Assembly (NCBI GenBank): GCA_013792055.1
Contig: VMSQ01000273.1
Span: forward strand, 1-34,529
Length of the DNA stretch: 34,529 bases
From: Desulfobacteraceae bacterium
GTDB lineage: Bacteria; Desulfobacterota; Desulfobacteria; Desulfobacterales; ETH-SRB1
Direction: 5' to 3'
Shown: positions 7,187 through 32,776 of the stretch, one piece after another
Layout of the letters: the number at the start of each line of letters is the position of its first letter
Numbering within the stretch: position 1 is the first letter of the stretch
The notes under the pieces: model-generated
Databases searched by the model: none
What the model was told of the DNA's origin: nothing
Seen by the model: only the letters and a program-made list of their open reading frames with translations
Program-made: the position numbers and the translations under genes

Positions 7187-7288
7187 CTGAACTTCAAAAC
7201 GTCTGGCGGGTTAGCCTTCAAGGGGTTATCCGGCTTTCTGTTTAATCTCAGAATTATTATAATATACAGTTAGAAAAAGGTAATCAAA

Positions 7289-7525
7289 TTGATTGAAGAA
7301 CAGCAAAATCAGAAAACCGAAAGGCTTTCCGGTCAACATTTTGATACTTCGCTATATGTTATAGGTGGAATTACCGGAGAGCCAGAGCGTTACTTGGCGG
7401 ACAAGCCGCCTCGCAGGTTAACCCAATGTTATATCTATGAAATCAATAAAAACTTGCCCGTTAAGAATGCCCAACGTCCGTGTTTGGGCAGGGAGAATGA
7501 TTTCGAAGAGGAAAATGGATACTGA
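7289..7525 (+). CDS. Small hypothetical ORF (TTG start)
   Basis: 78 aa, open frame immediately upstream of the helicase gene with AAAAGG upstream; no recognised motif. Confidence 0.3.
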   Translation: MIEEQQNQKTERLSGQHFDTSLYVIGGITGEPERYLADKPPRRLTQCYIYEINKNLPVKNAQRPCLGRENDFEEENGY

Positions 7526-7528
7526 AAG

Positions 7529-10500
7529 ATGATTCAAATCTTCAACAATAAGACTGACAAAGTCGGTGATGATTTTAAAAAGGGTATCAACAGAGAAAGC
7601 AAACTTCAGGTTGCTGCCAGTATATTTTCTATATACGGTTTTGAATCGCTAAAAAATGAGCTGAAAAAGATTGATAAGCTGAGGTTTATCTTTACCGACC
7701 CGACTTTTATTGAACTCGACAAAAACAAAAGAGAACAAAAGCAGTTTCAAATACATGCCAATTTCAGGCAAAAGGCTATAAGCGGATCTGAGTTTGAAAT
7801 AAACCTGAAAAATGAGCTTAAAGGTAAAGCGATTGCGAAAGAGTGCAAAAAATGGATTGAACAGAAAGTGGAATTCAAAACAAATATCGACAATAAATAC
7901 ATACAGCCGCATATTTCACTCGTAAACAATGATAACAGCTATGTGTACATGGGCATCAATGAATTCAGCAGTGCCGGGTTTGGATATGAGAAGGACAACT
8001 CGATACTGCATCAGATTATAAAAACCGATGACTATGAGACAACCAGGCGATACTTGCAGAATTTTGAAGATATTTGGAATGACGAGAAAACATTAAAAAA
8101 TGTAACGAACGAAGTTGTTGGGTACATTGCTGATCTCTATAAAGAAAACCCGCCGGAGTTTATCTATTATCTCACTCTCTACAATATTTTCGATGAATTC
8201 CTTGAAGATATTTCAGAAGATGAACTGGCGAACGAAAAAACGGGATTTAAAAAATCGATAATCTGGAACAAGCTCTATGACTTTCAGCGTGATGCTGTTC
8301 TGGGCATTATCAATAAATTGGAGCGGCATAACGGCTGTATACTTGCTGACAGTGTCGGACTTGGCAAAACATTCACGGCTTTGGGCGTCATAAAATATTA
8401 TCAGGAAAGAAACCGCACGGTACTTGTACTCTGTCCCAAAAAATTGGAAGATAACTGGCAGACTTTTTTAAACAACTATGAAGACAACCCACTGGTCAAA
8501 GACCGTTTAAATTATGATGTCTTATTTCATACAGACTTATCAAGAGAAAAAGGTATATCTAATGGAATAGATTTATCACGAATAAACTGGGGCAATTATG
8601 ATCTGGTGGTCATTGATGAATCGCATAATTTCAGAAACAACGACCCCCGCAAAGATAGAGTGACCCGCTACCAAAAGCTGCTTAACGATGTCATGAAGGC
8701 TGGTGTTAAAACAAAACTCCTCATGCTTTCAGCAACACCTGTCAATAACAGATTTACGGATTTTAAAAACCAGATTGCTTTGGCATGGGAAGGAGAAACC
8801 GGCAAGACAGATGGAAAACTGGGTACTGAAAAATCAGTTGAAAACATTTTATCCAATGCTCAGAAAATCTTTAATGACTGGACTAAACTGCCGATAGAAG
8901 AACGAAGCAGCCAGACGCTGCTTGCCAGCCTCAATACGAATTTTGATTTTTTTAAACTGCTTGATAGCGTTACCATTGCCAGAAGCAGAAAACATATCGA
9001 AAAATATTATGACATCAATAAAATCGGCAAGTTCCCTAATCGGTTAAAACCCATTACACACCATGCGGATATTACTGATCTTGCAGGTTTTATTGAGATG
9101 TCGGAACTCTATAAGGAACTCTCAAGGCTGAACCTGGCCATCTATTCGCCTACAGAATATATTCTGGACAGTAAACGAAGCTTTTATAGCGAGTTATACG
9201 ACACCAACATCAGTGAAAAAGTAAGCTTTAAACAGTCACACCGGGAAAAAAGCCTGCAAACCCTTATGCGGGTAAACTTGCTTAAGAGGCTGGAAAGTTC
9301 TGTCGATTCATTCAGAATCACCCTGAGTAAATTTATAAAAGAGAATGAAATCACCATAGGAAAAATTGAGGCTTTTGAAAAGACAGGCACTCAAGGATTT
9401 GCCGAATCAACCCAACTGAATGATATTAACTTAGACGCAGAAAGTGATGACTGGCTGAGTGATGAAATGAGTGTTGGCGGCAAAGTTAAGGTAAACCTTG
9501 TCGATATGAACACATCCGGCTGGAAACAGGATTTGCAGGCAGATATACTTATTGCAAAGTCCATATTTAAAGAAATGGCAAAAGTTACGCCGGAACACGA
9601 CACAAAGCTACGGGATTTAAAGAAATTCATTAAAAAGAAAATAGAAGCTCCTATAAATCCGGGGAACCGCAAAATTCTAATTTTCAGTGCTTTTGCAGAT
9701 ACGGTGAATTATCTCTATCAGAACCTTGCCGACTATAATAAACAAGTGCACAACTTGGCAACCGCAAAGATAACCGGTTCCGATAACAACCAGAATACAC
9801 TAAAAATCGACAACCGTTTTAACAACCTTCTTATAAACTTTTCACCCCGATCAAAAGAACGCAGAAAAAAGGATGCCCCTGAAATCGATATTCTGATTGC
9901 AACAGACTGTATATCAGAGGGTCAAAACCTGCAGGATTGCGATACGCTCATTAATTATGATATTCACTGGAATCCGGTCCGCATTATCCAGCGGTTTGGC
10001 CGAATAGACAGAATCGGGTCGATAAATAAAGATATTCAGCTCATTAACTTCTGGCCGCAGCTTTCTCTTGATGACTATATCAATTTGAAAAACCGGGTCG
10101 AAAGCAAAATGTTTATGGTGGATGCCACTGCTTCCGGCGAAGATAATGTGCTCACCAATAAATCATCAGACCTGGTTTTCAGAAAAAAACAGCTTGAAAA
10201 GCTGCAGGAAGAAGTGGTGGATATAGAAGATATGGGTTCAGGAGTATCCATAACAGATCTTGGCTTAAATGATTTCCGAATGGACCTGGTGAATTATATC
10301 AAAGAGCATGGCAGTCTTGAGAGTGTTGCAAACGGCATGCAGACGGTATGCAAAAAGGATACTGAACGGGGCATTGAAGAAGGCGTTGTTTTTGTTTTAA
10401 AGAATATTAATAATGAAGTCAATATCGACAAAACCAACCCATTGCATCCATTTTATCTGGTATATATAAAAACAGATGGTTCAATTCTCTCCAACCATTT

Positions 10501-10777
10501 GAATGTTAAAAACACCCTGGATATCCTGCGCACTTTGTGCAAGGGAAAAAGTGAACCGATAAAAGAAGTGTATGATCTTTTTAATGATGAAACCAATGAC
10601 GGCAAAAATATGTCGAAGTATTCCGGTTTACTCAATAAGTCCATAGAAGCGGTGCTCAATGTCAAAGATGAAAGCGATGTTGACAGTCTTTTTACAGCAG
10701 GCGGTACCACTGCCCTGATGAATAATATTAAAGGTCTGGAAGATTTTGAGCTCTTAACCTTTGTGGTGGTGAAATAA
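7529..10777 (+). CDS. SNF2/DEAD-like superfamily 2 helicase with N-terminal degenerate PLD-like region
   Basis: 1082 aa; ILADSVGLGKTFTALGVI (motif I), VVIDESHNFRN (motif II), LLMLSATPVNN (motif III), IDILIATDCISEGQNLQDCDTLINYDIHWNPVRIIQRFGRIDRIGS (motifs V/VI). Confidence 0.92.
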   Translation: MIQIFNNKTDKVGDDFKKGINRESKLQVAASIFSIYGFESLKNELKKIDKLRFIFTDPTFIELDKNKREQKQFQIHANFRQKAISGSEFEINLKNELKGKAIAKECKKWIEQKVEFKTNIDNKYIQPHISLVNNDNSYVYMGINEFSSAGFGYEKDNSILHQIIKTDDYETTRRYLQNFEDIWNDEKTLKNVTNEVVGYIADLYKENPPEFIYYLTLYNIFDEFLEDISEDELANEKTGFKKSIIWNKLYDFQRDAVLGIINKLERHNGCILADSVGLGKTFTALGVIKYYQERNRTVLVLCPKKLEDNWQTFLNNYEDNPLVKDRLNYDVLFHTDLSREKGISNGIDLSRINWGNYDLVVIDESHNFRNNDPRKDRVTRYQKLLNDVMKAGVKTKLLMLSATPVNNRFTDFKNQIALAWEGETGKTDGKLGTEKSVENILSNAQKIFNDWTKLPIEERSSQTLLASLNTNFDFFKLLDSVTIARSRKHIEKYYDINKIGKFPNRLKPITHHADITDLAGFIEMSELYKELSRLNLAIYSPTEYILDSKRSFYSELYDTNISEKVSFKQSHREKSLQTLMRVNLLKRLESSVDSFRITLSKFIKENEITIGKIEAFEKTGTQGFAESTQLNDINLDAESDDWLSDEMSVGGKVKVNLVDMNTSGWKQDLQADILIAKSIFKEMAKVTPEHDTKLRDLKKFIKKKIEAPINPGNRKILIFSAFADTVNYLYQNLADYNKQVHNLATAKITGSDNNQNTLKIDNRFNNLLINFSPRSKERRKKDAPEIDILIATDCISEGQNLQDCDTLINYDIHWNPVRIIQRFGRIDRIGSINKDIQLINFWPQLSLDDYINLKNRVESKMFMVDATASGEDNVLTNKSSDLVFRKKQLEKLQEEVVDIEDMGSGVSITDLGLNDFRMDLVNYIKEHGSLESVANGMQTVCKKDTERGIEEGVVFVLKNINNEVNIDKTNPLHPFYLVYIKTDGSILSNHLNVKNTLDILRTLCKGKSEPIKEVYDLFNDETNDGKNMSKYSGLLNKSIEAVLNVKDESDVDSLFTAGGTTALMNNIKGLEDFELLTFVVVK

Positions 10778-10807
10778 TTATGAATTATGAATTATGAATT
10801 ATGAATT
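10777..10807. repeat. Heptanucleotide tandem repeat (ATTATGA)x4 + ATT
   Basis: Four perfect ATTATGA copies 10777-10804 overlapping the start codon of the next gene. Confidence 0.95.
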
Positions 10808-11435
10808 GAAATTACCGCGAGAGGCTTTTGTAAACAAGTTTATTGCAAAAACCAAGTTTTACGAAAAGGCAACGCTCAGTTCAAAGCTTCAAAAAGAATT
10901 TGTCGATAAAATACAGAAAATCACCTGGAAGTATAAACTTGCTGAAAGCACTGTCGGCATTACCAAAACAGCTACAGTTACAGAGATACAGATATTTGAA
11001 ATTGAGTTGAAAGAACAGATAATCCCTAAGAAAGTTCTGCAGGTTATTGATAAAACCATACCTTACCAGATTTTATATTGCTTTGTTTTTAATAAGAGCG
11101 TGGCGTATGGAATAACATTGAAAGAAAATACCAGTGTTGAAAGCTACTATTTTTCAAACTGGAATGAAGATATGCTTTTTGATTTTACTGGTATTGATCT
11201 GGAAAGGGTCTATCAGAAATTGGTGAAAGCCTTTATCCGGAACAAAGCGAAAACGAAAAGCAGTTTTCAAGAGATTGTTGATGTTGATAATAAAATAAAA
11301 GCATTGGAAGCTGAAATAGCCAGGTTGGAGAGTAAAATTTCGCAGGAAAAGCAGTTTAACCGCAAAGTTGAGATAAATAAGGTTTTGCTGGAACGAAAAA
11401 AAGAGCTGGATATTATTTTGAATCACAAATTATGA
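10794..11435 (+). CDS. DUF4391-like protein
   Basis: 213 aa, MNYELKLPREAFVNKFIAKTKFYEKATLSSKLQKEFVDKIQKITWKYKLAESTVGI...; C-terminal coiled coil KALEAEIARLESKISQEKQFNRKVEINKVLLERKKEL. Position next to helicase/mod/res fits DUF4391. Confidence 0.75.
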   Translation: MNYELKLPREAFVNKFIAKTKFYEKATLSSKLQKEFVDKIQKITWKYKLAESTVGITKTATVTEIQIFEIELKEQIIPKKVLQVIDKTIPYQILYCFVFNKSVAYGITLKENTSVESYYFSNWNEDMLFDFTGIDLERVYQKLVKAFIRNKAKTKSSFQEIVDVDNKIKALEAEIARLESKISQEKQFNRKVEINKVLLERKKELDIILNHKL

Positions 11436-11499
11436 AAAACTTAGAACATTTTCCCAACGCCGGGAAAACGATTGATTCAAGCATTTTGGAGAGAATATA

Positions 11500-12344
11500 A
11501 TGGAAAGCCATAAAATAGCCTTATTTCAGAAAAAAGAGATTCGTAAAATCATTTATGAAAATGAATGGTGGTTCGTTATAAATGATGTCATTGCAGCCCT
11601 TACCGATTCAAAAGATCCTGCGCAATATTTTAAGCGGATGAAATCAAGGGACACTGAGTTAAAAAACCTCACCGAACAAGGGGGGGTACAACTTGTACCA
11701 CCCCTTATGTTGGAAGTAGAATCAGCGGGCGGTAAACAAAAAATGTATTGCTGGCATACGGAAGGCATTTTCAGGCTTATCCAGTCTGTTCCATCTGCAA
11801 AAGCAGAACCTTTTAAAAGATGGCTCGCTAAAGTTGGCTATGAACGGGTGCAGGAGATTGAAAATCCTGAGTTGGCCACTAAAAGAACCCGTGCTCTTTA
11901 TATTGCAAAAGGATACAGTGAGGACTGGATTGAAAAACGAATGCGGGGAATTTCAATTCGTGAAGAGTTAACTGATGAATGGAAAAACCGTGGTGCAAAA
12001 GACCAAATCGAATATGCGATTTTAACGGCAGAGATCAGCAAAGCGACATTTGGAATGACCCCGGGTGAATATAAAGAATTTAAAAATCTGAAAAGAGAAA
12101 ACTTCGAGATCACATGACAGACCTTGAACTTATTTTTTCTATGCTTGGTGAAAGAGCAACAACAGAAATAACACAGGTTAATAATACTCATGGGTTTAAT
12201 AGTCTTAAAAATGATGCCAGTGAAGGCGGCAAAATTGCGGGAGATGCAAAACAGGCATTGGAAAAGAAAACAGGAAAATCTGTAAGTACCAATGAGAATT
12301 ATTTAGATGCACCAGAAATAAAGAAAAGGCTAAAGGAGAAGTGA
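11500..12344 (+). pseudogene. Bro-N / phage antirepressor-like protein, split by an apparent single-nucleotide frameshift
   Basis: ORFs 11500-12117 (Bro-N: EIRKIIYENEWWFVINDVIAALTDSKDPAQYFKRMKSRD...) and 12114-12344 (MTDLELIFSMLGERATTEITQ...). Frame 1 reads LKRENFEIT*; one extra nucleotide would give LKREN-LRDHMTDLELIF, the usual continuous sequence in this family. The two ORFs overlap at ATGA (12114-12117). Confidence 0.7.
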
Positions 12345-12348
12345 AATA

Positions 12349-14295
12349 ATGGACAAACTGAAAATGCAGACACCGGACTTGACCGATAAAAATATAGAAC
12401 AGATTGCCGCATTATTTCCCAATGTAATTACCGAAACAAAAGATGAGAAAGGCAATCTTAGGAAAGCTGTTGATTTTGACCTGCTCAAACAGGCGTTATC
12501 CAAAAATCTTGTTGAAGCCGATGACGAACGCTACCGACTGGACTGGCCCGGGAAAAAGGCATCACTTCTAAAAGCCAATACGCCCATTACCAAAACCCTG
12601 AGACCGTGCCGTGAAGAATCGGTGAATTTTGATACCACCGAAAATTTGTATATCGAAGGGGATAATTTTGAAGTGCTGAAGATTTTGCAGGAGAGTTATC
12701 TCGGTAAAGTGAAGATGATTGACATTGACCCGCCCTATAATACGGGCAATGATTTTATCTATAAAGATGACTTTAAAAAGGGCAAAGAAGAGTATGAAGA
12801 AGAACTGGGTGTTGAGGATGAAGACGGCGGAAAGTTATTCAGGAATACCGACAGCAACGGCAGGTTTCATTCCGATTGGTTGAGTATGATGTATGAGAGA
12901 CTGGTGGTTGCGAGGGATTTGCTGAGGGATGATGGGGTTATTTTTATCAGTATTGATGATAATGAAGTACATAATTTGAGGAAGATTTGCGATGAGATTT
13001 TTGGGGAGGGAAATTTCATTGCACAACTTATCAGAAAAACGATAGAAGGGGGTAAACAAGATTCTGGAAGTGTTCAATCTAATCAAGAGTATTGTTTGGT
13101 CTATCACGGAAAAGACCAGTCGGGCACAAACCGTAAGTTAATTACTGATTTTGGACATTACACAAAAGAAGATAAGTTTATTCATGAGAGGGGTAAATAT
13201 TATCTAAAGCCGCTTGAAAACGGTGGGTTGGGATATGTCCCGAGTCTCGACTACCCAATAATCGGACCTGATGGTATCGAAATATTCCCAGGAGGCTCTC
13301 ATGGTGATAATGGGTATCGTTGGGTGTGGGGAAAAGAGAGGTATGGAAAAGCTGTATCCCTTGACTTGATCGCATTTATAGAAGCGCGTGATGGTGTCGG
13401 ATATAAAGTGTACTACAAAATATATCAATATTTCAATTCAGATGGAGATGTTGTTGAAAGAAGCTCGCCGTTTGGAACGCTATATCTGGAAGGGTACACT
13501 AATAGGCAAGCGGTCTTAGAGCTTAAAAAAATATTTGATGACAAAAGACTTCTTGACTATCCGAAGCCCACATCATTTTTAAGAGAGTGTATTTCTATGG
13601 GCTGCCACAAAGATTCTATTATCATGGACTTCTTTTCCGGCTCCGCCACCACCGCCCACGCTGTCATGCAGCAAAACGCTGAAGACGGCGGTAACCGCAA
13701 ATTCATCATGGTGCAACTTCCCGAAAAAACCGACGAAAAAAGCGAAGCCTACAAAGCTGGCTACAAAACCATCGCAGAAATCGGCAAAGAACGCATCCGC
13801 CGTGCAGGGAAGAAAATACTCTCTGAACTCGAAGCTAAAAATCGGCAGTTAAAACTCGGAGAAGAACCTGTTGATGCCAGTAAGCTCGATATCGGCTTCC
13901 GTGTTTACAAAACCGACTCCACCAACATGAAAGATGTATTTTATCACCCGAGTAAGTTAAAACAAATGACTCTTGGTGATTTATTGAGCAACATCAAAGA
14001 AGACCGCACCCCCGAAGACCTTTTGACGCAAGTTATTCTCGATCTCGGCCTTGAACTCACCTTGCCCATTGAAATAAAGAAGATACTCGGCAACACAGTT
14101 TTTATCGTCCAAACCAATGCCCTTGTCGCTTGCTTTGATAAGAACATTGACTTCAAAATTGTCGATACCATAGCAGACCTGAAACCTTTTAAAGTAGTCT
14201 TTAAAGATGCCAGCTTCAAAGACGATAAAGACCGCATCAATGTGGAAGAACGTTTTAAAAGGCTGTCGCCGGAAACGAAAGTAATGGTGATTTAA
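12349..14295 (+). CDS. mod: Type III restriction-modification DNA methyltransferase (Mod), beta-class N6-adenine
   Basis: 648 aa; ENLYIEGDNFEVLKILQESYLGKVKMIDIDPPYNTGNDFIY (DPPY) followed later by IIMDFFSGSATTAHAVMQQNAEDGGNRKFIMVQLPE (SAM-binding FSGSA). Confidence 0.93.
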   Translation: MDKLKMQTPDLTDKNIEQIAALFPNVITETKDEKGNLRKAVDFDLLKQALSKNLVEADDERYRLDWPGKKASLLKANTPITKTLRPCREESVNFDTTENLYIEGDNFEVLKILQESYLGKVKMIDIDPPYNTGNDFIYKDDFKKGKEEYEEELGVEDEDGGKLFRNTDSNGRFHSDWLSMMYERLVVARDLLRDDGVIFISIDDNEVHNLRKICDEIFGEGNFIAQLIRKTIEGGKQDSGSVQSNQEYCLVYHGKDQSGTNRKLITDFGHYTKEDKFIHERGKYYLKPLENGGLGYVPSLDYPIIGPDGIEIFPGGSHGDNGYRWVWGKERYGKAVSLDLIAFIEARDGVGYKVYYKIYQYFNSDGDVVERSSPFGTLYLEGYTNRQAVLELKKIFDDKRLLDYPKPTSFLRECISMGCHKDSIIMDFFSGSATTAHAVMQQNAEDGGNRKFIMVQLPEKTDEKSEAYKAGYKTIAEIGKERIRRAGKKILSELEAKNRQLKLGEEPVDASKLDIGFRVYKTDSTNMKDVFYHPSKLKQMTLGDLLSNIKEDRTPEDLLTQVILDLGLELTLPIEIKKILGNTVFIVQTNALVACFDKNIDFKIVDTIADLKPFKVVFKDASFKDDKDRINVEERFKRLSPETKVMVI

Positions 14296-14297
14296 TT

Positions 14298-17200
14298 ATG
14301 AAGCTGATATTCAAACAGCAACCCTACCAGACCGATGCCACCATGGCCGCTGTCCGTTGTTTCGAAGGACAAGGCAAGGGATTTAGAAAAGAAGTTATTG
14401 GCAGGACAGAACTTTTTAAGGAAGAGATTTTTTCCAACAAAAAGCTGGAAATTACCGATACTGATATTTTAAAGAATGTCCAAGCCTTGCAAAAAGAACA
14501 AGGATTAAAAACAATCAGCCGTTTGGACGGGTTGAATTTTACCATTGAGATGGAAACCGGAACAGGAAAAACCTATGTCTATACCAAAACAATGTATGAA
14601 TTCAGCAAGCATTACGGCTGGAACAAGTTTATTATCATGGTGCCTTCCGTGGCTATCCGTGAAGGCGTGCACAAATCCCTTGAAAATACTGCGGAGCATT
14701 TTCAGGAAATATACGGTAAAAAAATCCGGTTTTCGATTTACAACACCAACAATAAATCCAATTTAATAAACATTAAAAGCTTTGCGGACACTTCCAATAT
14801 CGAAGTTATCATTATGAACTATCAGGCGTTTAATGTAAAAGAACCAGATCAAGATATTAAATCAATAAGATCTGAGGTTGCACGAAAAATTTATCAAAAA
14901 CTTGACTCTCTGCAAAGTGAACGACCAATAGATATCATTAAGAGAGCCCGCCCGATTTTAATCATTGACGAACCGCAACGCTTCGGCGAAAAGGCTGAAA
15001 AGATATTTACCAACAAGGTATTTAATCAGCTTTTTACATTGCGATATTCGGCTACGCACAAAAAAGAATTCAATAAAATCTACCGCCTTGATGCCATTGA
15101 TGCCTATAACCAGAAGCTGGTTAAAAAAATAAGTGTAAAAGGGATTGAAGTCGTTGGTAACTCCGGTACTAACAGTTATCTCTTTCTCGATAGAATACAG
15201 ATTAGTACCAGCAAGTACCCCGTTGCCTATTTGGAGCTTGAGGTCAAACAGATCAACGGCATTCAGAAAAAAATCAGACAAGTAAAAGAAAAGGATGATT
15301 TGTTTGTTCTCTCAAACGAACTCAAACAGTATAAAGGCTTTATTGTAAAAGAGATTAACGGATTAACCAACAGAGTTTCCTTTACTAATGGCGTCAAATT
15401 AACAGTCGGGCAAACAACCGGAGATGTGGATGAAGAACATGTCCGCCGAATACAGATTCGGGAGACCGTAAAATCCCACATTGAAAAAGAGCGGATGATG
15501 TTTACAAAAGGTATAAAGGTTTTATCCCTCTTTTTTATTGATGAGGTGGCAAAATACCGGCTGTATGACAATAACAATAATCAGCAGAAAGGCGACTACG
15601 CAAAAGTATTTGAAGAGGAGTATAAGCGGGCAATCAGCCAGTTAAATTTGTTTGAAACAGATTACAATGACTATTTGCACCGATTTGCAGTGGAAGAGAT
15701 TCACAAAGGTTATTTCTCAATTGATAAAAAAGGGAAATTTGTCAATTCAAAAGAAAATAAAAATGAGGGCGGCATCAGTAATGATGTAAGTGCGTATGAT
15801 CTTATTATGAAAAATAAAGAAACGCTTTTAAGCCTGAGCGAACCAACCCGCTTTATTTTTTCTCATTCTGCACTGCGGGAAGGCTGGGACAATCCCAATG
15901 TGTTCCAGATATGCACTTTGAAACACAGTCAGTCAGAAATCAGCAAAAGACAGGAAATAGGACGAGGTTTGCGTATTTGTGTAAATTCCAATGGTGACCG
16001 CATGGACACTTCTGTTCTGGAAAGTGACTTTTTTGATATAAACAAATTAACTGTGGTTGCCAGCGAATCCTATGATTCTTTTGCTAAGGCTCTTCAGAAT
16101 GAAATTGTAGCGTCACTATCCGAAAGACCGGTCAATCTTACAATTGATGTATTGAATAACCGTGTTTTAAAAAATGAAAAGGGCGAGAAGTTCACCTTTG
16201 ATAATCAGAGTTCAATGGATTTGATCTTTGATATGAAAACTAAAGGATATATTGATAATAATTACCAGATTACAGATGTCTTAATCAAAGCCATAGAAAG
16301 CAAAACATACGAAGTTCCCGAAAAATTAAAGGGGTTTGAAGGCTGTGTCGCAGAACTGATGCAGAATATCTACACAACAGCAAATTTTACAGCCGCTGAA
16401 GATGAAAGCGCCAATAACATTGATGAACCTGTTTTAAAGCCGAATGATAATTTTGATAGAAAAGAGTTTCAGGATTTATGGAAAAAAATTAAAGTAAAGA
16501 CCGTGTATGAAGTAGATTTTGCCAGTCAAGAACTTATAGTGAAATGTATAAAAGCAATTGATAACAATCTGACGGTAAAAAAGATTTTGATAAACATAAC
16601 TTCCGGCCAACAACAGGACAAAATTGATGAGGCGACACTTAAAGCCGGTGAAAGCATGAGAAAGGAGAAAAGCATAACAGAAAGGGCAGCGTCTCTTCTT
16701 GGTTCTTTGAAGTATGACTTAGTGGCTGAAATTGCGAAAGAGACAAACCTTACCAGAAAAACAATCGTTAAAATATTGAAGGATTTACGGCAGGATACTT
16801 TTCATAACTTCAGAGTTAATCCGGAGAGTTTCATACAGGGTGTCGCACGAATTATAAACAGTGAAAAAGCAGCGATGCTTATAAACAACATTGTTTATTC
16901 AAAAACAGATAAGACTTATGATGACAGCATTTTTACCATAAATAACTTCAAGGGCTCCCTTGCCAAGAACATTCTGGAAGTCAAAAAACATGTGCATGAT
17001 TATGTAAAAACTGATTCTGATATTGAGAGAAAATTCGCCTCTGATCTTGAATGTGAAGAAGTTCTCGTTTATGCAAAATTACCAAAAGGTCAAAAAGGTT
17101 TTCAAATACCAACTCCACTCGGCAATTATTCTCCTGACTGGGCAATAGTTTTTAATACCGACAAATTTAAGTATGTGTATTTCATTGCTGAAACTAAGGG

Positions 17201-17345
17201 AAGTATGGAAACGCTGCAGCTGAAAGAGATCGAACAGAAGAAAATCAGTTATGCCAAAAAACATTTTGATGCTTTGGGGCATGCGGATATTAAATATGAT
17301 GTTATTGATTCTTACCAGTCATTGAGAGATAAGATAATGAAGTAA
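14298..17345 (+). CDS. res: Type III restriction endonuclease Res subunit (DEAD-like helicase + PD-(D/E)xK nuclease)
   Basis: 1015 aa; FTIEMETGTGKTYVYTKTMYE (motif I), PILIIDEPQRFGE (motif II), RFIFSHSALREGWDNPNVFQICTL and RQEIGRGLRICV (V/VI), C-terminal SPDWAIVFN...YVYFIAETKGS nuclease motif. Confidence 0.93.
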   Translation: MKLIFKQQPYQTDATMAAVRCFEGQGKGFRKEVIGRTELFKEEIFSNKKLEITDTDILKNVQALQKEQGLKTISRLDGLNFTIEMETGTGKTYVYTKTMYEFSKHYGWNKFIIMVPSVAIREGVHKSLENTAEHFQEIYGKKIRFSIYNTNNKSNLINIKSFADTSNIEVIIMNYQAFNVKEPDQDIKSIRSEVARKIYQKLDSLQSERPIDIIKRARPILIIDEPQRFGEKAEKIFTNKVFNQLFTLRYSATHKKEFNKIYRLDAIDAYNQKLVKKISVKGIEVVGNSGTNSYLFLDRIQISTSKYPVAYLELEVKQINGIQKKIRQVKEKDDLFVLSNELKQYKGFIVKEINGLTNRVSFTNGVKLTVGQTTGDVDEEHVRRIQIRETVKSHIEKERMMFTKGIKVLSLFFIDEVAKYRLYDNNNNQQKGDYAKVFEEEYKRAISQLNLFETDYNDYLHRFAVEEIHKGYFSIDKKGKFVNSKENKNEGGISNDVSAYDLIMKNKETLLSLSEPTRFIFSHSALREGWDNPNVFQICTLKHSQSEISKRQEIGRGLRICVNSNGDRMDTSVLESDFFDINKLTVVASESYDSFAKALQNEIVASLSERPVNLTIDVLNNRVLKNEKGEKFTFDNQSSMDLIFDMKTKGYIDNNYQITDVLIKAIESKTYEVPEKLKGFEGCVAELMQNIYTTANFTAAEDESANNIDEPVLKPNDNFDRKEFQDLWKKIKVKTVYEVDFASQELIVKCIKAIDNNLTVKKILINITSGQQQDKIDEATLKAGESMRKEKSITERAASLLGSLKYDLVAEIAKETNLTRKTIVKILKDLRQDTFHNFRVNPESFIQGVARIINSEKAAMLINNIVYSKTDKTYDDSIFTINNFKGSLAKNILEVKKHVHDYVKTDSDIERKFASDLECEEVLVYAKLPKGQKGFQIPTPLGNYSPDWAIVFNTDKFKYVYFIAETKGSMETLQLKEIEQKKISYAKKHFDALGHADIKYDVIDSYQSLRDKIMK

Positions 17346-26104: not shown

Positions 26105-27289
26105 CTACGATCTGTAGTCTGCATTAATCTTAACATACTCAACAGAAAAATCGCACGTAAATACAGATGCACATCCTTTACCCATGTTTAAGTCAATAGA
26201 TATACGCAGCTCAGGCTTCATAAGAACCTTCGTTGCTTCAGCTTCAACAGCCTTCCCGCATCCCATACCGTTTTTTACCATCAAAACATCATCAAACAAT
26301 ATATTTATCTTACCCTCCTCAAGAGGGGCATCCGCCCTTCCAGCCGCAGCAATAATTCTTCCCCAGTTGGCATCCTCGCCAAAAAGTGCTGTTTTAACAA
26401 GATTTGAATTTGCAACAGTATTGGCTATTTTATGCGCATCATTATCCGATAAAGCGCCCTTAACATATATCTCAATAAATTTTGTTGCCCCCTCGCCATC
26501 TCTAACTATCTGTTTTGCAAGATCGATAAGTACGTCATCTAGTAAATTCTGGAAATAATCTATACGCTCAACACCTTTAATAACTGCACTTGAAAGACCA
26601 TTTGCCATGATAATAACTGTATCATTAGTACTTGTATCACCATCTATGGTTATTCGATTAAAGGATCGCTGAGTCGAGTTATAAAGAAGATTCTTAAGCA
26701 ATTCATGGTCAGCATCAATATCAGTGCAGATAAAACATAACATGGTTGCCATGTCAGGGCATATCATGCCGGAACCCTTAGCAACGCCGATTACCGTAAA
26801 GGTTTTACCGTCTATTTTACCCTGCCTTGAAATAGTCTTTGGAACAGTATCTGTCGTCATTATAGCTCTTGCAAGATCATAAACTCCTTCTGGTCTTAAA
26901 GAGTCGATAAGGCCTGGAATCGCTTGCTGTATCTTGTCAATCGGCAATGGCTCCCCAATAACTCCTGTTGAACACACAAGAACCAGATCTTCAGAGATTC
27001 CGAGGCCCGAGGCCGCATATCTTGCCATGGTTTTTGCATCATCCAATCCTTTATCGCCCGTACAGCAGTTAGCGTTTCCGCTGTTTACTATTACTGCCTG
27101 ACATCTGCCCGATTGAATGCGTTCCATATCAAGTATCACTGGTGCTGCCTTAACTTTATTGCTGGTAAAAACTCCCGCAGCTTTTGCAGGAATCTTTGAA
27201 AAAATAATGGCTAAATCCTTTCCGCCAGACTTTTTAAGACCGGAAGCTACTCCTGCCGCCATAAAACCCGGACAAATTAAATTTTCCAT
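26105..27289 (-). CDS. argJ: Bifunctional glutamate N-acetyltransferase/amino-acid acetyltransferase ArgJ
   Basis: 394 aa; [75 protein letters not shown] (KGSGMI and [10 protein letters not shown] motifs). Confidence 0.96.
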
Positions 27290-27462
27290 ATATGAAATTC
27301 CTCTAAAAAAAGTTTCCTGAAACCCCTGATCCCCGGTCCATGATTTATAATAAACGCAAACTATCTTTTTTTACAATATATATTTCGGCGTTTGACTTCA
27401 ATAGAATTTTACTGTAAATTAATATTGTTAACGATATTTTGAGCTTAAGGAGTCGTAAAAAA

Positions 27463-27648
27463 GTGGAAGAAAAACATTTTGCTATTTGCTTAACTTGCGG
27501 TAAAAAACTGATTCTAAAAAAATCGTGACGGCGTGCTTACCTTTTCTGCAAGTTCTGCAGTACCGAGTACCCTATAAAAAAATTTGCTGATTTGATGGAT
27601 GATATTTTTGAAGAACAGCTCGCGAATACACGTTGTGACAGGTTATAA
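27463..27648 (+). CDS. Probable selenoprotein: small dual-CXXC protein with in-frame UGA (Sec)
   Basis: GTG at 27463 with AAGGAG upstream (27447-27452); VEEKHFAICLTCGKKLILKKS-U-RRAYLFCKFCSTEYPIKKFADLMDDIFEEQLANTRCDRL*, TGA at 27526-27528, TAA at 27646. The coding character and second CXXC continue in the same frame after TGA. I recall a dual-CXXC small (seleno)protein family in delta-proteobacterial genomes. Confidence 0.75.
27533..27570 (+). promoter_or_regulatory. Candidate bacterial SECIS hairpin
   Basis: Outer stem GUGCU (27533-27537)/AGUAC (27566-27570), upper stem CUGCA (27546-27550)/UGCAG (27556-27560), loop AGUUC with G at loop position 2. The loop starts 22 nt after the UGA, in the usual range for bacterial SECIS elements. 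Confidence 0.6.
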
Positions 27649-27732
27649 CTCAAGTTTCGCACCCCCCCTATGCAACAAAAGCTTTAAAGTGCAGGTTCAT
27701 AGGAATTAGTGGTTGCGAAACTTGAGTTATAA
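27643..27732. repeat. MITE-like element with perfect 19-bp inverted ends
   Basis: TTATAACTCAAGTTTCGCA (27643-27661) and its exact reverse complement TGCGAAACTTGAGTTATAA (27714-27732), 52-bp centre. Confidence 0.85.
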
Positions 27733-27823: not shown

Positions 27824-28564
27824 ATGCCTAAAAACTTCAAAATTACAATAGAATATGACGGCAGCTCCTATCATGGCTGGCAGAGACAGAAAAATCTGAG
27901 TACGATTCAGGGAGAAATTGAAAAGGCTTTGATGAAAATGACGGGCAATAAAGTTAGCCTGACAGGCTCCGGCAGAACTGATGCTGGAGTCCACGCCTTT
28001 GGCCAGGCAGCTAACTTTAATTGCAATACAGCCCTGTTGCCGGAAACATTTTATAAAGGGTTAAACAGCCTCCTGCCGGATGATATTGTAATAAAGGAAT
28101 GTAAGGAAGTTGATGAAAAGTTTCATGCCCGATATGACGCAAAAAGCAAAATTTACAGCTACAGGATATTAAATTGCCATACACCTGCTGCCATCGGCAG
28201 GCAGTATGTGTGGTTTATTCGAAAAAAACTTGATTCGAATGCTATGAGATCATCAATTTCTCATATAATAGGTCTACATGATTTCAAGGCATTTGAAGGA
28301 ACGGGAAGCCCAAGATCACATACTACAAGGAACATTTTGAATGCAACGATCGAGCAAAAAGATATAAGCTGTCTTTACTTTGAAATAGAAGCAGATGGTT
28401 TTTTAAAGCATATGGTACGCAATATCGTTGGTACTCTTGTAGATGTAGGGCTTGGTAAAATCACACCTGATGACTTCAAGCAAATACTTATTTCAAAAAA
28501 CCGCAACAAAGCCGGCGCTACAGCACCTCCACATGGTCTTTTTTTAATGCACGTTAAATATTAA
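27824..28564 (+). CDS. truA: tRNA pseudouridine(38-40) synthase TruA
   Basis: 246 aa; FKITIEYDGSSYHGWQRQKNLSTIQGEIEKAL, GSGRTDAGVHAFGQAANF (catalytic Asp), FLKHMVRNIVGTLVDVGLGK. Confidence 0.96.
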   Translation: MPKNFKITIEYDGSSYHGWQRQKNLSTIQGEIEKALMKMTGNKVSLTGSGRTDAGVHAFGQAANFNCNTALLPETFYKGLNSLLPDDIVIKECKEVDEKFHARYDAKSKIYSYRILNCHTPAAIGRQYVWFIRKKLDSNAMRSSISHIIGLHDFKAFEGTGSPRSHTTRNILNATIEQKDISCLYFEIEADGFLKHMVRNIVGTLVDVGLGKITPDDFKQILISKNRNKAGATAPPHGLFLMHVKY

Positions 28565-32488: not shown

Positions 32489-32776
32489 TTATCTGTTCCC
32501 TCTTTTGGATGCCTTTAATGGATTAAGTTTTGCTTTTGTACCATTTGATGCTACGGAAATATGAGAGGCAAAGTTGCAATCCCCGTTTTTCCATTTTAAA
32601 GATGGATCAGGATATACAGTACAATACCATCCAGATGAAAATTCAGCACTGCGGTTACATCCTTTACATTTCTCATCAATTTTATGGCAAACTCCGCCAT
32701 TATAATCACATCCATTTGCAGTCATAAATGGGCAATTCATACCCTCTCTAACAGTTGAACAAACCAATGGAACCAC
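32489..32776 (-). CDS. PxxKW-family cysteine-rich protein
   Basis: 95 aa; MVPLVCSTVREGMNCPFMTANGCDYNGGVCHKIDEKCKGCNRSAEFSSGWYCTVYPDPSLKWKNGDCNFASHI. Confidence 0.8.
   Translation of the reverse strand: MVPLVCSTVREGMNCPFMTANGCDYNGGVCHKIDEKCKGCNRSAEFSSGWYCTVYPDPSLKWKNGDCNFASHISVASNGTKAKLNPLKASKRGNR

Follow-up and report, generated by a model that had tools for sequence, protein, structure and literature searches.

Results

Identification of a probable selenoprotein gene of the NF041197 family

A gene at 27463-27648 on the plus strand, encoding a small protein with two CXXC motifs, very probably specifies a functional selenoprotein of the NF041197 family in which an in-frame UGA is decoded as selenocysteine (Sec), as judged from its sequence and those of its relatives. 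The gene lies in a stretch of 34,529 nucleotides from a Desulfobacteraceae bacterium (contig VMSQ01000273.1), referred to here as the window. The initial annotation had described a 61-residue dual CXXC frame with a GTG start, an AAGGAG Shine-Dalgarno sequence, an in-frame TGA, a second CXXC and a TAA stop, and each of these was recovered when the sequence was read again. The Shine-Dalgarno sequence (27447-27452, plus strand) stands 10 nt before the GTG at 27463, and both it and the same GTG are kept in two near relatives, L171 and L172. Direct translation gives VEEKHFAICLTCGKKLILKKS-U-RRAYLFCKFCSTEYPIKKFADLMDDIFEEQLANTRCDRL, followed by TAA at 27646-27648. The first CXXC is CLTC (residues 9-12, 27487-27498) and the second is CKFC (residues 29-32, 27547-27558), the latter overlapping the stem and loop of the hairpin described below. 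The TGA at 27526-27528 corresponds to residue 22, which is located between the two motifs and in neither of them, the knuckle cysteines being residues 9, 12, 29, and 32. A conserved C-terminal CDRL at 27634-27645 contains Cys 58.

The frame matched the NF041197 profile with 69.8 bits when the TGA was written as Cys and with 61.8 bits when it was written as X (curated cut-off 40), and the match spans both sides of the TGA. Translation and alignment both place a Sec/Cys position between two CXXC motifs, which is the arrangement that characterizes NF041197. A 2026 review (PMC13188914) lists OS_HP3, from the Olavius algarvensis Delta 1 symbiont, as the NF041197 selenoprotein with an RxU site, and cites Zhang and Gladyshev (2007) for it. 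The small dual CXXC (seleno)protein family to which the initial annotation had pointed in related genomes therefore exists and is catalogued as a selenoprotein in that review. Because NF041197 is already catalogued, the kind of protein is known and the window copy is a new member. The two are alike in length, in both CXXC motifs, in a Sec located between them in an [ST]-U context, and in a C-terminal C[DN]R[LI]. The window copy differs in its GTG start and in a stop codon supplied by an inserted repeat. It also differs from the CRSC motif common in the family in having Lys for Arg and Phe for Ser, and as a result of these substitutions the apical loop of its hairpin reads AGUUC instead of the common GGUCC.

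The inserted element is a multicopy palindromic repeat at 27643-27732 with 32 matches in the genome. It folds at -39 kcal/mol (z -6.55) and is absent from L171, which has TTATGAAC in the place of TTATAACTC in the window, indicating that the repeat replaced a TGA stop by TAA and left the protein unchanged. The insertion falls exactly at the selenoprotein stop codon, and several of the genome matches are located near contig ends. In appearance the repeat resembles a MITE or the end of an insertion sequence.

Conservation at and beyond the in-frame TGA

Homologs were examined in the same order and in the wider phylum. Matches above the NF041197 cut-off were present in 148 of 243 genomes of the order, and almost all of these contained a single TGA. 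When 85 distinct copies were read base by base, the aligned codon was TGA in 83, TGT (Cys) in one, and TGG (Trp) in one. The TGT copy (L020, in genome G090) has a codon +8 that no longer ends in G. The TGG copy (L034, in genome G115) has lost its first Cys and thus looks degenerate. In the wider phylum, 88/395 genomes scored above the cut-off. Stop-free matches were frequent among the highest scores, and all 20 stop-free loci inspected, which belong to other orders, carried Cys at the aligned position. The expectation that Sec- and Cys-containing homologs would align at the TGA was thus borne out.

In a 44-row alignment, with TGA written as Cys, the invariant positions were Cys 9, 12, 29, and 32, position 22, Glu 50, and Arg 60, with Cys 58 nearly invariant. 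Conservation was therefore found to continue past the TGA, one of the points that the initial annotation had named as a check on its reading of the frame. Compared to L171, the nearest named relative, the stretch after the TGA showed a dN of 0.09 and a dS of 0.95, with 12 of the 20 changes at third positions. A scan of named genomes with a tighter alignment yielded 11 named loci, all from Deltaproteobacteria/Desulfobacterales-type MAGs, and a search of plasmids returned no match. Sec decoding, family membership, and the conserved position are each supported by this comparative evidence.

SECIS-type hairpin within the second CXXC

The region 27526-27572 on the plus strand is predicted to contain a SECIS-type hairpin, on the basis of both the fold and the family evidence, with an upper stem at 27546-27550/27556-27560 and an apical loop at 27551-27555. 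The hairpin CUGCA-AGUUC-UGCAG has a 5-bp upper stem and a 5-nt loop whose first two bases are AG; it folds as originally proposed, with the loop starting 22 nt after the UGA and a G at loop position 2. Published rules for bacterial SECIS elements (PMC13188914) give a loop of 3-9 nt, a stem of 4-16 bp, a G at loop position 1 or 2, a distance of 16-37 nt from the UGA, and a minimum free energy (MFE) of at most -7.5 kcal/mol. The window hairpin lies within all of these limits, with an MFE of -13.3 kcal/mol over 50 nt. Its energy is modest compared to shuffled sequences (z -2.05), and among synonymous recodings of the window peptide 17% fold as well and 16% fit a simplified SECIS rule. MFE alone was accordingly set aside as proof of a SECIS in the window copy.

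The family provides a stronger signal. The simplified rule is fitted by 94% of family copies compared to 52% of recodings. The third base of codon +8 after the TGA is G in 82/83 copies, whatever amino acid is encoded, and where Arg is encoded there the codon is AGG in 56/62 cases versus 45/469 elsewhere in the same genes (Fisher p 1e-40, a value that ignores shared ancestry; as this holds for the selection tests on the hairpin generally, their p values are not to be taken literally). One stem pair covaries: base 3 of codon +6 pairs with base 2 of codon +11 as C-G 59 times and as U-A 17 times, with 3 mixed C/U versus G/A cells. The G at the end of codon +8 is less frequent among the Cys forms that have no stop (11/19). 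These patterns of nucleotide-level selection past the TGA support a SECIS, with the proof lying at the family level and the window hairpin alone being weak.

Selenocysteine machinery in the host genome

The host genome assembly (340 contigs, 95.8% complete) was examined for the Sec system. It contains tRNA-Sec (74.3 bits), selB (383.7), selA (628.2), and selD (387.5), so that the whole machinery whose presence had been proposed as a check is there; the host selD carries one in-frame TGA of its own. Across the order, selB was found in 141/159 family-positive and 64/84 family-negative genomes, a difference that is significant but makes a weak test because selB is nearly ubiquitous there. A strong selB match was missing in 18 family-positive genomes, several of them fragmented.

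These data bear on two other readings of the TGA. In bacteria TGA is by default a stop, and the window hairpin offers only a modest improvement over recoded sequence, so the gene could be a pseudogene or encode a 21-residue peptide, in which case the TGA would be a plain nonsense codon and the similarity beyond it a relic. At the family level this is refuted by the retention of the same TGA in nearly every distinct copy, by purifying selection beyond it, and by selection on the hairpin, and for the window gene we regard it as highly improbable. A second possibility is that an altered genetic code or near-cognate suppression places a different amino acid, for example Trp, at the UGA, and the TGG of L034 would speak for this; that copy, however, also lacks the first Cys, and the stop-free homologs from the rest of the phylum carry Cys rather than Trp. 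Moreover, of 20 long genes in the window 3 have TGA as their stop codon, TGG is used throughout, and a full Sec system is present. Insertion of Trp was rejected on these grounds and is scarcely credible. Under the preferred reading, the hairpin immediately after the UGA would direct SelB with Sec-tRNA to decode codon 22, and translation would proceed to the TAA.

A second dual CXXC gene and other features

The same genome contains a second dual CXXC selenoprotein-like gene (L151, in genome G000, contig C124, match at 7193-7330 on the minus strand), just upstream of a frame resembling a sugar-nucleotide (RfbA-type) enzyme. Many genomes of the phylum contain dual CXXC genes like it. It has a GRU site and scored 36.4 bits against NF041197, below the cut-off of 40. 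The review also files hypothetical protein DW, of the GxU group, under NF041197 (PMC13188914). The C124 copy resembles the DW group and, as in the window gene, has a TGA between its two CXXC motifs; it differs from the window gene in its GRU context and in having no CDRL end. It is a paralog, separate from the window gene.

Elsewhere in the window, 7529-17345 is an apparent defence island. It comprises an HKD and Snf2 helicase gene (PADLOC C3a139, 434 bits) and a PDC-S13 candidate whose start resembles Bro-N, together with a type III pair of methyltransferase (748 bits) and restriction enzyme (929 bits). A small Cys-rich frame was noted at 32489-32776 on the minus strand, and similar frames are found near the selenoprotein in eight family loci.

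Predicted fold and chemistry

An AlphaFold model built with 11 sequences was of moderate confidence (mean pLDDT 71, pTM 0.51) and placed strands at residues 15-21 and 25-29, which would put residue 22 at a hairpin turn. The best Foldseek matches were zinc ribbons of the RPB9/RPC11 type, with an rmsd of about 1.6 over about 33 residues and a probability of 0.99 but an E-value of 0.1, every E-value being above 0.001. As modelled, two knuckles and a β-hairpin would be shared with these proteins, a resemblance at the level of the fold that is not significant by Foldseek E-value, and the RPB9/RPC11-type ribbons are without Sec. Matches to Pfam zinc ribbons fell below cut-off. By sequence profile, the closest solved structures were YfgJ-type zinc ribbon proteins (2jrp, E 3e-5; 2jne, E 0.0014), which are nevertheless remote and also have no Sec. 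The protein probably folds as a zinc ribbon whose hairpin, as the model suggests, carries Sec at its tip.

Zinc binding, the modelled hairpin-tip position, redox chemistry, and a resolving partner are what we infer for the protein. The two CXXC knuckles would most likely hold one zinc, and this site would be structural. Sec would be positioned at the tip of the β-hairpin between the knuckles, so that the selenol would be displayed away from the metal. The selenol would then most likely be the working nucleophile, acting in thiol/selenol redox exchange or as a trap for an oxidant, electrophile, or metal, and the conserved Cys near the C terminus could be its resolving partner. A redox role for the protein is put forward tentatively.

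Genomic neighborhood

The selenoprotein gene is flanked by a divergent argJ (26105-27289, minus strand; NCBIfam ArgJ, 521.5 bits) and a co-directional downstream truA (27824-28564, plus strand; NCBIfam TruA, 208 bits). Across the 85 family loci, argJ was divergent upstream in 43, truA followed on the same strand in 48, the two occurred together in 35, and a permease of the auxin-efflux type (AEC) was downstream in 21, usually between the selenoprotein gene and truA; as several contigs are short, these counts are lower bounds. Many loci have a selenoprotein stop that overlaps the next start or falls within 30 bases of it, which suggests one operon. In the window, 175 bases separate the gene from truA, and the palindromic repeat lies in this gap. 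A literature search retrieved no paper joining truA with a dual CXXC selenoprotein.

Discussion

The function of this protein may be viewed in more than one way. With five chalcogen residues and a C-terminal Cys within 61 residues, and with zinc ribbons as its look-alikes in Pfam and among PDB sequences, the protein might use Sec as a metal ligand, or mainly bind a metal or selenium-containing species, and so be a metal sensor, store, or chaperone and not a redox catalyst. In the model, residue 22 occupies the turn of the hairpin and is separated from the knuckles both along the chain and in the fold, which speaks against such a role, as does the lack of any metal gene consistently linked to the family loci, and we consider it rather unlikely. 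The frequent co-directional truA, often overlapping or within about 30 bases, and the nearest folds, which are zinc ribbons of RNA polymerase and the ribosome, could also indicate an accessory linked to translation or RNA that works with TruA and reports selenium or redox state to tRNA modification. However, the linkage may mean only a shared operon, the AEC permease usually intervenes where it occurs, and many loci have no truA nearby, making this role improbable. The fuller proposal, that a predicted zinc ribbon presenting its selenol at the hairpin tip from within a truA operon would couple tRNA pseudouridylation or translation to selenium or redox state, is a long shot. To our knowledge, no selenoprotein is known to have such a function. 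The tentatively favored reading is still that of a zinc ribbon with a structural metal site and a reactive selenol at the turn.

The finding corrects an easily missed gene and bears on a family of unassigned function that occurs in 148/243 sampled genomes of one order. With selection acting on the putative SECIS inside the second CXXC, the gene clearly illustrates how a single stretch can encode both protein and RNA signal. The conserved argJ/truA setting and the likely position of Sec at the tip of a zinc-ribbon hairpin are leads that we did not find in the literature searched, and they make the function of the family testable.
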